Source: Klenkia brasiliensis (lineage in GTDB: Bacteria; Actinomycetota; Actinomycetes; Mycobacteriales; Geodermatophilaceae). Taken from it: DNA of 58,498 nt. Below, piece by piece: positions 20,414-28,736 of the stretch (positions are counted from its first letter, which is position 1; the number at the start of each line of letters is the position of its first letter). The notes below the pieces were generated by a model. That model made no database searches, had not been told where the DNA came from, and saw only the letters and a program-made list of their open reading frames with translations. The translations under genes were made by a program, and so were the position numbers. The stretch spans positions 1 through 58,498 of the forward strand of contig NZ_FNCF01000011.1 of the NCBI RefSeq assembly GCF_900100695.1. Direction: 5' to 3'.

Positions 20414-20447
20414 GCGACCCCTTGTCACAGGATCACCGGACACAGGA

Positions 20448-20538
20448 AAGCGGGGCGTCCAGATGGACGACCCGCCTCTCAGCTGCGGTTTCACTGTCGG
20501 GCTGCCAGGATCGAGATCTGCGACCCCTTGACCCCCAG
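20448..20538 (-). repeat. Left att-like repeat: partial tRNA-Pro 3' end plus hairpin
   Basis: This 91-base stretch matches 28612-28704. The 21 bases at 20518-20538 are identical to the tRNA-Pro segment from anticodon loop to T-arm, and the remaining tRNA 3' part has several mismatches. To the left it keeps a hairpin (GCGGGGCGTCC at 20450-20460 with GGACGACCCGC at 20465-20475, one mispair) matching the tRNA terminator in place but not in exact sequence. A further 11-base match to the core, GCGACCCCTTG, lies at 20414-20424, exactly where GntR homology ends. Confidence 0.75.
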
Positions 20539-20643
20539 CTAGGCGCGGGCCGTTCACCGACGTCCGGCACAGTCCGGTTTACGCAAGTCAGAGGCGAATG
20601 ACGTACGCGGTCGTCCGAGCGAATCCGCCGCCGTCCCGACCGC

Positions 20644-20662
20644 GTTGCTGTACCGGTTGCTG
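20644..20662 (+). repeat. 19-base direct repeat, left copy
   Basis: GTTGCTGTACCGGTTGCTG occurs here and at 28581-28599, 106 bases inside the left tRNA-like copy. The unit contains GTTGCTG twice (spacing 12). It could be an arm-type recombinase site or part of the integrase 3' end carried at both ends of the island. Confidence 0.6.
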
Positions 20663-20985
20663 TATTTCTGATCGGGCTCGCCACAGGCCGAGCTCCACCC
20701 CACATGGTCCCTTGACCCCTGCGGTCGAGCCCACGATGCAGTTGAGCGTCTGCGGGCTGCGTCGGTTCACAACTCGGACGGAGGGGGTTTGTGGTCCTCT
20801 GATTCCGGAACGGGTTTCGGTCAACCGCCGCCCATCGCGACCAGCACGTTCGCGGCTGATATGGAACATGCGTCCTGTCAGGTCACAAACGGTGGTTTCT
20901 GGTCATTGACCGCGACCCGGGTGCATCCCCAGGGGAGTCCGGGGAGGCGTGGGGCCGAGACCTGGTGTTGTTGTTAATCCGGGCC

Positions 20986-21035
20986 GGGTTGACCTGAGTT
21001 GACTTCAGATCAACCCGTGGGCTGGCTTGCAAGCC
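20986..21035 (-). terminator. Terminator hairpins after the catabolic operon
   Basis: GGGTTGACCTGA (20986-20997) and TCAGATCAACCC (21005-21016) pair with one mismatch around a 7-base loop. Next to it is the perfect palindrome GGCTTGCAAGCC (21024-21035). Both lie 86-135 bases beyond the stop of the last operon gene (esterase, 21121). Confidence 0.5.
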
Positions 21036-21120
21036 CCCTGCCTCTCGCCCAACGGCTGACGGTCCCATCCGGGAGCCGATTCAGAACGAGACGTCGTGGC
21101 TGGCCAAACGCTGCCGACCC

Positions 21121-22080
21121 CTACTCACGATCCAGACGGGCGCCGGATGGGGCATCCGGGAAGAGCGCCCGCTGCAGAACCGCCGTTTGCGTCCGCAGGA
21201 AATCGCGGGAGACAGTGCGGTTCGGCAAGACGGCGTCGAACCCGTGGAAGGCGCCGTCCACGACGTCCAGCTTGCACGGGACCCCTGCCGAGCGCAGGCG
21301 GTGTGCGTAGGCGACGTCCTCGTCGTGGAAGAGGTCCAGGGTGCCGACGCCGATCCACGCGGGCGGGAGACCGGAGAGGTCGTCCCGGCGGGCGGGTGCT
21401 GCGTAGGGCGAGACGTCGGTGCCGCCGGGGTCCTGTCCGAGGTAGGCCGTCCAGCCGTAGCGGTTGCTGGCCTTGGTCCACATGCGTACTCCGGGCACGT
21501 GGTGGTCGGTGCGGGTCACCGTGCGGTCGTCGATCATCGGGTACACCAGCAGCTGGAATGCGGGAGTGACTTGGGCGCGGTCGTGGGCAAGCAGTGCGAG
21601 GCCGGCGGCCAGCCCGCCTCCGGCGCTGGCTCCGCCGATGGCGATGCGATCGGCGTCGATGCCCCGTTCGTGGGCGTGGTCGGCCAACCAGCGCAGGGCC
21701 GCGTAGCAGTCCTCCAGCGCCGCGGGAGCCGGGTGGGCGGGTGCGAGCCGGTAGCGGACGGCAGCCACGGTCATCCCCAGGGTGCGGGCGAAGGAGAGGA
21801 GGGTGGGCTCGTCCTGCAGCGGGTGCCCGATGATCATCCCGCCGCCGTGCATCCACAACAGGGCCGGTGCGGACCCTTGCAGCATCCTTGGGCGGTACAG
21901 GCGCAGCGGGACGCCTCCGCAGTCACCGGCCCCCGGGACGACGACGTCCTCGACGAGGACGTCGTCAGGGACCGGCCCGGGTTCCGGTGTGCGCTTGCGG
22001 AGCAGCGCCGAGACCCGGGGCCCCATCGTGATGGGGGGTATGAAGCGCGCGATGGAGAGGTCGGGGTGGAAACGGGACAT
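21121..22080 (-). CDS. Alpha/beta hydrolase, hormone-sensitive-lipase family esterase
   Basis: The 319-residue protein has the HSL-type esterase features: oxyanion motif HGGG at 78-81 (LLWMHGGGMIIGHPL), nucleophile Ser152 in GASAGGG, Asp249 in GTLDLFHDEDVAYAH and His279 in GAFHGFDAV, the full catalytic triad. It hydrolyses carboxyl esters of short or medium acids, and lactones in some members. ATG at 22080 follows a GGAG site. It is the last gene of the operon that includes a Baeyer-Villiger monooxygenase, so the ester or lactone made by that enzyme is the likely substrate (inference from context). The gene appears intact. Confidence 0.88.
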   Translation of the reverse strand: MSRFHPDLSIARFIPPITMGPRVSALLRKRTPEPGPVPDDVLVEDVVVPGAGDCGGVPLRLYRPRMLQGSAPALLWMHGGGMIIGHPLQDEPTLLSFARTLGMTVAAVRYRLAPAHPAPAALEDCYAALRWLADHAHERGIDADRIAIGGASAGGGLAAGLALLAHDRAQVTPAFQLLVYPMIDDRTVTRTDHHVPGVRMWTKASNRYGWTAYLGQDPGGTDVSPYAAPARRDDLSGLPPAWIGVGTLDLFHDEDVAYAHRLRSAGVPCKLDVVDGAFHGFDAVLPNRTVSRDFLRTQTAVLQRALFPDAPSGARLDRE

Positions 22081-22171
22081 GGTTGCTCCGGTCGTCGGTC
22101 TGGGCGCCCCCTCGCTTGCTCTGCCAGCTCCCCCGCGGGTGGGGCTGACAGAGGCGTGGCCGGCGCTGGGG

Positions 22172-22986
22172 TCAGAAGTGCTGGGCGCCCAGGTCGACGG
22201 ACAGGTGCTCGGCGGTGATGAACTTGGCGTCGTCGGAGGCCAGGAAGGCCACCGCCGTGGAGATGTCCTCGGAGTCCACCGAGTACTCGGGCAGGAACGA
22301 CGTGCCCATGGTGGCCAGCTTGGGGTTGGTCTCGGCGGCCCGTGTCAGGGCACCGATCATGTCCCCGGATCCCATGGGTGAGTTGACGGCTCCCGGGTGG
22401 ACGGAGTTGACCCGGATGCGGTGCTGGCCCAGCTCGGCGGCGAACGCGCGGGTCATCCCGGTCACGGCGTGCTTGCTGGTGGTGTAGTGGACCATGAACG
22501 GCTGCATCTTCCGGCCGGCGTAGGAGCTGATCAGGATGATCGACCCGCCCCCGCCCGTCACGAGGTGGGGGGCCCCGGCCATCACCGTGTTCCACACGCC
22601 GGTCACGTTGATGTCCATCGTGTCCTGGAACATCGTCGGCGTGGACTGGTCCCAGGTCGCGGGGATGCAGATGCCGGCGTTGGCCACCACGACGTCCAAC
22701 CGGCCCAGCTCCGCGACGCCGGTGTCGACGAAGTCCTTCAGCGCGGGGAGGTCGCGGGTGTCTCCCTGCCGCGCGATGATGCGCCGGTCCAGGGCCTCCA
22801 CCAGGCGGACGGTCTCCGCGAGGTCCTCAGGGGTGGGCGAGTCGTAGGGGACGCCGGGCAGCGGCCCAGCGAGGTCGAGGGCCAGGATGTCGGCCCTTCC
22901 GACGCCAGGCGCACGGCGTGAGCTCGTCCCTGTCCAAGGGCCGCACCGGTGATGAGGGCGACCTTGCCCTCCAGCCGAGTACTCAT
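22172..22986 (-). pseudogene. Mycofactocin-coupled SDR dehydrogenase, interrupted by a single-base loss
   Basis: The N-terminal frame (ATG 22986, AGGAGAAG upstream) gives LEGKVALITGAALGQGRAHA, the NAD-binding TGxxxGxG motif. After RLASEG the reading shifts; restoring one G in the run at 22894-22896 gives ADILALDLAGPLPG and then the rest of the protein to the stop at 22172. The second part has VVANAGICIP, SSYAGRKMQPFMVHYTTSK (catalytic Ser, Tyr, Lys) and RVNSVHPGAVNSPM. The insert YDSPTPEDLAETVRLVEAL after the Rossmann start is typical of the SDR subfamily that keeps NAD bound and re-oxidises it with mycofactocin. The full length would be about 271 residues. The role would be oxidation of a secondary alcohol. 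It may be real decay or a sequencing error. Confidence 0.8.
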
Positions 22987-28015: not shown

Positions 28016-28032
28016 CCGCACGCACAAGTCGC

Positions 28033-28069
28033 GACCCCACCGCATCAATGAATGCGATGCGGTGGGGTC
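28033..28069 (+). terminator. 14-bp perfect hairpin after the TetR gene
   Basis: GACCCCACCGCATC (28033-28046) and GATGCGGTGGGGTC (28056-28069) are perfect inverted repeats with a 9-base loop, starting 17 bases after the stop codon. This is one of the two strongest terminator-like stems in the window. Confidence 0.7.
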
Positions 28070-28236
28070 CTCGGTCCGGACTACAGACCGCCGCAGCAAC
28101 GATTCGCGGACTTCAGTGCAAGGCCGCCGCACGCCAGCCCTCTGTCACCCCGTCGAGATGCCCACGGGTTCCGGACACCGCTGTAGGCCGAGAACCAGTG
28201 GACGGGACTGATGCACGAATAGGTGACATCTGATCT

Positions 28237-28415
28237 GTGGTGCCATCGACGCAGGCGCACACATCAAAGTGGTCCAGGAGCACCTCGGCCACTCCTCGTA
28301 CGCCATCACTGCCGACATCTACACGCACGTCTCCCCAGAACGACGACGCGAGGCTGCCGACCACCTCGACCGTGCCGTCGACTGGTCCACGCCGGACGAC
28401 GACCCCGATGAGTAG
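28237..28415 (+). pseudogene. C-terminal remnant of a tyrosine recombinase (integrase)
   Basis: About 58 codons read GAHIKVVQEHLGHSSYAITA, then DIYTHVSPERRREAADHLDR, the end of a phage-type integrase catalytic domain. The HLGHSS motif carries the second catalytic His, and YTHVSPE carries the nucleophilic Tyr. The upstream Arg and HxxR parts are absent: before 28237 no integrase frame continues. The stop is TAG at 28413. It lies 250 bases from the tRNA-Pro gene, the usual place for the integrase of a tRNA-integrating island. Confidence 0.85.
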
Positions 28416-28580
28416 CGGGCTGCGCTGACCCGCCGGCAGCCGTCGACGCAGAAACAGCTCGGTCGGTAACAGGTCCGCCCGCAGCGCGGGGTGAGCGACC
28501 TCAGCACTCAGGAATCGCGATGGTCGTCCGTGCACGTGCGGAGCGGTTCGCTGCCGGTCGGGCAGTGTCTTCCCCGCTGG

Positions 28581-28599
28581 TTGCTGTACCGGTTGCTGC
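28581..28599 (+). repeat. 19-base direct repeat, right copy
   Basis: GTTGCTGTACCGGTTGCTG matches 20644-20662 exactly. Here it lies just left of the tRNA terminator, in the space between the integrase stub and the tRNA gene. Confidence 0.6.
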
Positions 28600-28611
28600 A
28601 CGAACGCAAGA

Positions 28612-28704
28612 AGGCGGGCCGCCCGGATCGGACGGCCCGCCTCTGACCTGCGGTTTCTCTGTCGGGCTGACAGGATTTGAACCTGCGACCCCTTGACCCC
28701 CAGT
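28612..28704 (-). repeat. Right att-like repeat: tRNA-Pro 3' part plus terminator
   Basis: This block includes the tRNA terminator hairpin and the tRNA from its 3' end to the anticodon loop, and corresponds to 20448-20538. The core 28684-28704 is identical in both copies. Here the tRNA part is functional. Confidence 0.75.
28614..28642 (-). terminator. Terminator hairpin after tRNA-Pro
   Basis: GGCGGGCCG (28614-28622) and CGGCCCGCC (28634-28642) form a perfect 9-bp stem around an 11-base loop, 20 bases past the tRNA 3' end. On the minus strand it is followed by TTCTTGCG, a short T-rich run. Confidence 0.7.
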
Positions 28705-28736
28705 CAAGTGCGCTACCAAGCTGCGCTACAGCCCGA
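28663..28736 (-). tRNA. tRNA-Pro (anticodon GGG)
   Basis: The minus strand folds as a complete cloverleaf of 74 bases. The acceptor stem is CGGGCTG (from 28736) pairing with CAGCCCG, discriminator A. The D-arm is in GTAGCGCAGCTTGG. The anticodon stem CTTGA/TCAAG encloses the loop CTGGGGG, so the anticodon is GGG. The T-arm contains GGTTCAAATCC. CCA is not encoded. The gene is the insertion site of the island to its left; der lies to its right. Confidence 0.97.

Follow-up and report, generated by a model that had tools for sequence, protein, structure and literature searches.

What brought an oxidation operon to lie between an intact tRNA-Pro(GGG) gene and an imperfect copy of that tRNA's 3' half in Klenkia brasiliensis, and what could keep it there? 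We address this question in the 58,498-nucleotide stretch of contig NZ_FNCF01000011.1 that was analysed as a whole (referred to as the window; all positions are window positions). A sequence-only reading had proposed that the segment arrived by integration at the tRNA 3' half and then lost its mobility genes, and the comparison with relatives points the same way. Very probably, the element is a decayed, integrase-less relative of other elements at this site, resembling a cis-mobilizable element (CIME) and apparently inserted beside an older element.

ARAGORN places tRNA-Pro(GGG) at 28661-28735 on the minus strand, as had been read from the sequence, and calls no other tRNA in the window. The adjoining gene (28810-30156), which we take, in line with the earlier reading, to be der, is conserved in 60 of 60 relatives searched, and der with its neighboring tRNA-Pro(GGG) is present in all eight same-genus relatives. 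At the far end, the imperfect copy of the tRNA 3' part and terminator stands as described. Positions 20447-20538 align with 28611-28703 at 84% over 93 columns (14 mismatches, one gap), the top whole-genome match to 28600-28740 besides the locus itself (E 1.2e-22), with the other two Pro tRNAs ranking lower. In the tRNA 3' half, 34 of 44 bases are matched in this copy, against 27 in the best of 40 order-1 Markov simulations of the window, so the copy exceeds chance by far. The tRNA 3' part is directly repeated at the far end, as in tRNA-borne genomic islands. Two exact copies of the 21-base core CTGCGACCCCTTGACCCCCAG occupy 20518-20538 and 28683-28703, giving an element length of 8165 bases from core to core. 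A GC profile, suggested earlier as a check on the island, agrees with it, with 70.1% within the element versus 75.0% to the left and 76.6% to the right.

The attP of a tyrosine integrase carries arm-type sites on both arms. We notice a 19-base repeat, composed of paired GTTGCTG units, inside both ends of the element, 105 bases from the left core and 84 bases from the right core. With up to three mismatches allowed, the window holds two matches, both exact, at 20644 and 28580, where 0.01 are expected. Exact or variant copies of the P-arm repeat also adjoin the tRNA in relatives G006, G004, and G008. The core and the 19-base repeats together form the P-core-P' layout of a tyrosine-integrase element. 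At the sequence level, exact cores, two-sided arm repeats, and a P' arm that aligns with sister copies indicate that both attL and attR are retained.

The sequence-only reading had also seen an integrase C-terminus beside the tRNA. Pfam alone does not detect this remnant at 28245-28409, and comparison with relatives establishes it: the remnant matches residues 338-392 of a 403-residue integrase frame adjoining the G001 tRNA-Pro(GGG) at 76%, and the G004 integrase beside the same tRNA at 68% over 47 residues. G001 thereby shares the integrase end beside the tRNA with the window. The G001 and G004 integrases are 63% identical to each other. Searching 397 genomes of the order with an integrase query taken from the tRNA-Pro(GGG) site itself revealed relatives in 18 genomes (E<=1e-85; 19 loci). 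The tRNA-Pro(GGG) is found at 15 of the 19 loci, the core with one or two mismatches at two more, and neither at two. Because the query came from that site, the count speaks for close relatives only; these keep the tRNA-Pro(GGG) site, and use of it by all integrases of the kind does not follow.

Scanning 37 genomes with positions 20400-20920 revealed copies reaching through the P' arm in all same-genus relatives except G006. Aligned with one another, the tRNA-type sister copies have the tRNA 3' half, the core, the P' arm, and the arm-type pair in common. Where copy and tRNA are on the same contig, they are 23 kb apart in G002 and in G003, 30 and 84 kb in G005, 93 kb in G004, and 136 kb in G001. 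In G034, a genome from another genus, an integrase gene adjoins a site whose core is flanked by repeats on either side, an arrangement like that of an unrecombined attP or a tandem junction. In the DNA examined, the window operon does not lie downstream of the tRNA in any of the eight same-genus relatives, nor does it follow the tRNA at any of the 20 der loci compared; the downstream stretch is short in G007 (about 8 kb), G008 (about 3.3 kb), and G025 (about 10 kb). At the same site in relatives, the island is thus absent or replaced. The gene order that would have spoken against an island, with der next to the operon and no tRNA copy, is not seen in these 20 loci.

These observations bear on the idea that the operon was inherited vertically and that the copy beside it is a duplicated tRNA or a stretch that resembles a tRNA by chance. 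The copy does take in the terminator along with the tRNA half, as a duplication could. However, the identity ends in the anticodon loop and gives way to a P' arm that recurs in seven of the eight same-genus relatives at other distances, an integrase end adjoins the tRNA, and relatives are without the operon at this place. We regard this idea as scarcely credible and largely contradicted already.

What kind of element uses this site is indicated by the gene contents of the sister segments, in which ten proteins from G001 and eight from G004 were scanned. Between attR and the tRNA, both segments encode a TraG-type coupling protein. The G004 segment has a TrbL/VirB6-like protein; the G001 segment has T2SSE- and T2SSF-type proteins as well as a type ISP restriction enzyme. 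Further genes are common to both at 47-95%. Meanwhile, a functional integrase with a conjugation module, the mark of an integrative conjugative element, is not found in the window element and is partly present in the G001 and G004 segments. A prophage remnant, in which a temperate phage supplied the integrase and attachment sites and either carried the operon or received it later, is quite improbable in our view. Phages often use tRNA 3' halves, and the window copy retains no transfer gene that would tell phage from conjugative origin, but coupling-protein and type IV secretion system (T4SS)-type genes are present in both sister segments whose integrase is complete. When viral contigs were scanned once with the G001 integrase as query, a scan that reaches close relatives only, no relative was found.

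In order to predict the outcome of excision, each attR half was joined to the window tRNA 5' half, and the expected product was run in ARAGORN. For the window, no tRNA is called. For the other tRNA-type copies in the genus, eight of nine products are tRNA-Pro(GGG), and the ninth (G004 contig 21) is an unassigned tRNA. By similarity, no second GGG tRNA is found in the K. brasiliensis genome, where the other Pro tRNAs read TGG and CGG. Exact excision is therefore predicted to destroy the sole tRNA-Pro(GGG) found, and since no other GGG tRNA was found in the genome, excision should be costly to the host.

The decay of the displaced half spares the core. The sequence-only reading had taken the identical core amid differing tRNA bases as a sign of constraint on the recombination core or of a second event. 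The core is indeed exact, but it is not the whole duplicated block: several sister sites are identical across the full tRNA 3' half, unlike the window genome, in which the half outside the core has changed. Of the 25 bases that precede the core, seven are changed in the window copy, one of the seven lying just outside the tRNA; the core itself is unchanged. For the genus, ten tRNA-type copies including the window's were considered; G004 contig 21 was dropped for an indel and changes in its core, and G003b and G000-C13 were omitted because they are not of the tRNA type. Over the same 25 positions, of which three fall outside the tRNA, the remaining nine copies add up to 13 changes, against zero in the core (p = 0.00036, only a guide in a weak test, as the copies are related and were partly found by core similarity). 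The pattern leans towards a constraint on the core.

We think it unlikely that the element still moves at times with an integrase from another element, as an active CIME would. Both cores and both arm repeats read as intact, and elsewhere in the genome contig C13 carries a distant integrase next to a P'-like arm, and contig C7 a TraG-type gene. That integrase, this genome's sole match to the G001 integrase at E<=1e-30, is only 36% identical to it, however; the predicted excision destroys the tRNA; and the integrase remnant, a broken short-chain dehydrogenase frame, and the changed tRNA half favor long residence. As a separate observation, the P'-like arm beside the integrase gene on C13 (locus L140, 4340-6253) has no tRNA half, and the two are perhaps another decayed element of this genome.

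We propose the following course for the decayed, CIME-like element. An element with a tyrosine integrase targeting the tRNA-Pro(GGG) 3' half would have inserted at the tRNA, probably separating it from an element already present. The incoming copy would have restored the tRNA 3' half and terminator, forming attL (28580-28735), and the displaced half would have become attR (20447-20664). The integrase and the ends belong to the family that bounds the segments of about 136 kb in G001 and about 93 kb in G004 with their conjugation-type genes, which suggests a conjugative ancestor for the window copy. Deletions then presumably spared only the last 55 integrase residues and no recognized transfer gene, leaving the six-gene oxidation operon and a TetR gene between two attachment sites as a CIME-like remnant. 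Later changes to the displaced tRNA half outside the core should hold the island in place, because exact excision would leave no recognizable tRNA-Pro(GGG).

The presence of an older element is suggested by the left flank. To the left of the attR terminator, the sequence is similar to that directly following the tRNA terminator in G003 (123 bases at 86%, tRNA half included), and by eye the same resemblance is seen in G005; several sister attR copies, also by eye, bear P-arm-like repeats at that position instead. Insertions appear to have piled up at this site, each newcomer pushing the previous element away from the tRNA. A GntR gene cut at the left border, as claimed earlier, is weakly supported: a probable fragment terminates there, and over 40 residues it resembles the last part of the FCD domain (E 0.021, below the cut-off). 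Farther left, an alcohol dehydrogenase gene is 93% identical in G006, 46 kb from the tRNA, and located elsewhere in G003 and G005, and a large gene has an 81% identical counterpart left of attR in G002. The first gene of the window has its match at the beginning of the G001 contig bearing the same tRNA, but it is repeated sequence, also found at the end of another contig of the K. brasiliensis genome. Window positions 1-421 share 99% identity with the beginning of contig C5 and have matches where contigs of G001 begin; they are a repeat that breaks assemblies. As for an older attR within window positions 1-20 kb, the P' arm profile gives only a marginal match at 20009-20058 (E 0.007), which we do not claim.

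Several points weigh against this account. The window operon is in none of the sister segments examined, and it may have arrived by another route after integration. The sequence-only reading predicted that strains without the island would run straight from the GntR/VOC region into the tRNA; no such strain is found among the eight same-genus genomes, and the left flank itself is variable, with scant synteny. The G007 and G008 copies are on contigs other than that of the intact tRNA and give no bounded segment, and G006 has a P-arm repeat beside the tRNA but no detected P' end.

Table 1. Features of the element and its borders (window positions).
Feature	Position	Strand	Basis
Probable C-terminal fragment of GntR/FCD regulator	20286..20415	-	FCD E 0.021, below cut-off
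Sequence like that beside intact G003 tRNA; possible end of older element	20416..20446		123-base alignment, 86%
attR: displaced terminator and tRNA 3' half, core 20518-20538	20447..20538		Genome search, sister alignment
P' arm, with arm-type repeat at 20644-20662, 105 bases from core	20539..20664		Sister-copy alignment; nhmmer; repeat search
Conserved block, no conserved frame seen	20761..20902		Matches in relatives, alignment and translations
Alpha/beta hydrolase (Abhydrolase_3)	21121..22080	-	PF07859
Short-chain dehydrogenase, frame broken near N-terminus	22172..22986	-	PF13561, PF00106 from residue 53 on; TIGR03971 below cut-off
Aldehyde dehydrogenase	23030..24439	-	PF00171
SRPBCC / polyketide cyclase-like protein	24432..24905	-	PF10604, below curated cut-off
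Patatin-like hydrolase	24930..25781	-	PF01734
Baeyer-Villiger-type flavin monooxygenase	25778..27250	-	FMO-like, Pyr_redox_3; 6era E 2.4e-63
TetR-type regulator	27350..28015	+	PF00440
Integrase C-terminal remnant, 55 residues	28245..28409	+	76% to G001 integrase residues 338-392
Arm-type repeat of P arm, 84 bases from core	28580..28598	+	Repeat search; relatives G006, G004, G008
tRNA-Pro(GGG), integration target	28661..28735	-	ARAGORN; conserved beside der in 8/8 same-genus relatives
attL core, 21 bases	28683..28703		Exact copy at 20518-20538

The cargo of the window element consists of a six-gene operon and a divergent TetR gene. Judged by Pfam, the seven complete genes that the cores enclose have metabolic or regulatory functions, and no transfer gene is recognized; besides them, the 55 integrase residues remain. 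The monooxygenase matches cyclohexanone monooxygenase (6era) at E 2.4e-63 over residues 5-242 only. It carries GGTWRDNRYPGVACD and FTGLLAHSAQWD, which we take to be fingerprint motifs of Baeyer-Villiger monooxygenases, and similarity to characterized enzymes together with these motifs assigns it to type I of this class. On the basis of the enzyme classes, the operon probably converts a ketone to an ester by the monooxygenase, followed by ester cleavage by the hydrolases and oxidation of the alcohol and aldehyde. Monooxygenases at E<=1e-170 occur in three of 112 family genomes, this one included, and the nearest (57-60%) are in G003 and G027, on contigs other than that of der. With the seven window proteins as queries, the operon is absent as a full set among the matches listed (80 loci and seven further), of which the best loci hold three of the seven proteins. 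The source of the operon is untraced because no searched locus had all six genes. The short-chain dehydrogenase (22172-22986) is split, with its N-terminus in one frame and the remainder in another, through either decay or sequencing error.

A few further observations concern the attachment regions. Near the P' arm, a block at about 20761-20902 recurs in G001, G002, G003, G004, G006, and G008; no conserved frame was seen by eye in seven sequences, and we reject the block as element-specific, given its shorter matches elsewhere in G004, G005, and G007. At positions 2614-3372, locus L045 (G008 contig 201) holds a P' arm-like sequence, the conserved block, an integrase end, and a P-arm repeat within about 0.7 kb beside the tRNA, and is an almost wholly deleted element. 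Locus L138 (G003 contig 8, 112-132 kb) has three P'-arm-like sequences (5551-5696, 7036-7175, and 15653-15798), of which the aligned one is without a full tRNA half.

Other catabolic sets are found at this site. G002 (L040, L095) and G006 (L090, L091) have 15 genes in common at 94-99% beside the same tRNA, and G003 likewise shares contents with G005. The G002 set includes a thiolase, a muconate-cycloisomerase-type enzyme, a catechol dioxygenase, and an alpha/beta hydrolase. The G002 P450 and reductase match the structures of GcoA and GcoB (5ogx, which we take to be GcoB) at E 1.6e-239 and 7.1e-154. In G002, this guaiacol/catechol-type gene set lies between two attachment sites. With the Baeyer-Villiger operon here, and a set for guaiacol demethylation and catechol both in G002 and next to the G006 tRNA, we would give even chances to a broader idea, namely that der/tRNA-Pro(GGG) is a genus-wide docking place where one integrase family trades catabolic sets, and that a ratchet makes an island permanent as its displaced half decays and leaving costs the only tRNA-Pro(GGG). 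The site offers a graded series with one attachment anatomy, from conjugation-type segments of 93 and 136 kb through islands of 23-30 kb and the 8-kb remnant to the G008 ends within about 0.7 kb. Fixation of acquired islands through decay of the displaced tRNA half becomes a testable idea, and catabolic genes of the genus may profitably be sought at der/tRNA-Pro(GGG).

In a search of the literature on the site and the host that was not full, we found no published report of this tRNA-Pro(GGG) site. In kind, the element is known: judged by its sequence it fits the CIME definition, and tandem catabolic islands at an RNA gene have already been described. Excision of Escherichia coli pathogenicity islands can damage selC or leuX. 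The window element likewise could damage its tRNA gene on leaving; unlike those islands, it has catabolic cargo and a lost integrase, and the damage would come through decay of the displaced half. A passage of PMC5704250 describes CIMEs as elements without integration and transfer genes that keep attL and attR, and defines accretion alongside. The window element agrees in the loss of both gene sets, the kept attachment sites, and signs of stacking at a tRNA 3' end; it differs from the CIMEs of that passage in its decayed tRNA half, which should make excision costly, and in its high-GC host and catabolic cargo (PMC5704250). In Dehalococcoides, as part of PMC3146451 describes, tandem islands at ssrA carry catabolic sets between direct repeats of the RNA gene end, are strain-variable, and in some cases are without an integration module. 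The same arrangement of catabolic genes bounded by repeats of an RNA gene end is seen here, but those islands use serine recombinases at tmRNA, whereas the window element belongs with a tyrosine integrase family at tRNA-Pro(GGG) (PMC3146451). According to the part of PMC3218068 that treats them, actinobacterial integrative conjugative elements (AICEs) resemble the elements at this site in having tyrosine integrases at tRNA 3' ends, tandem insertions, and sites kept by closely related integrases. AICEs are of the att-tra-rep-int-att type (PMC3218068), whereas the sister segments here have T4SS-type genes and the window copy has none.

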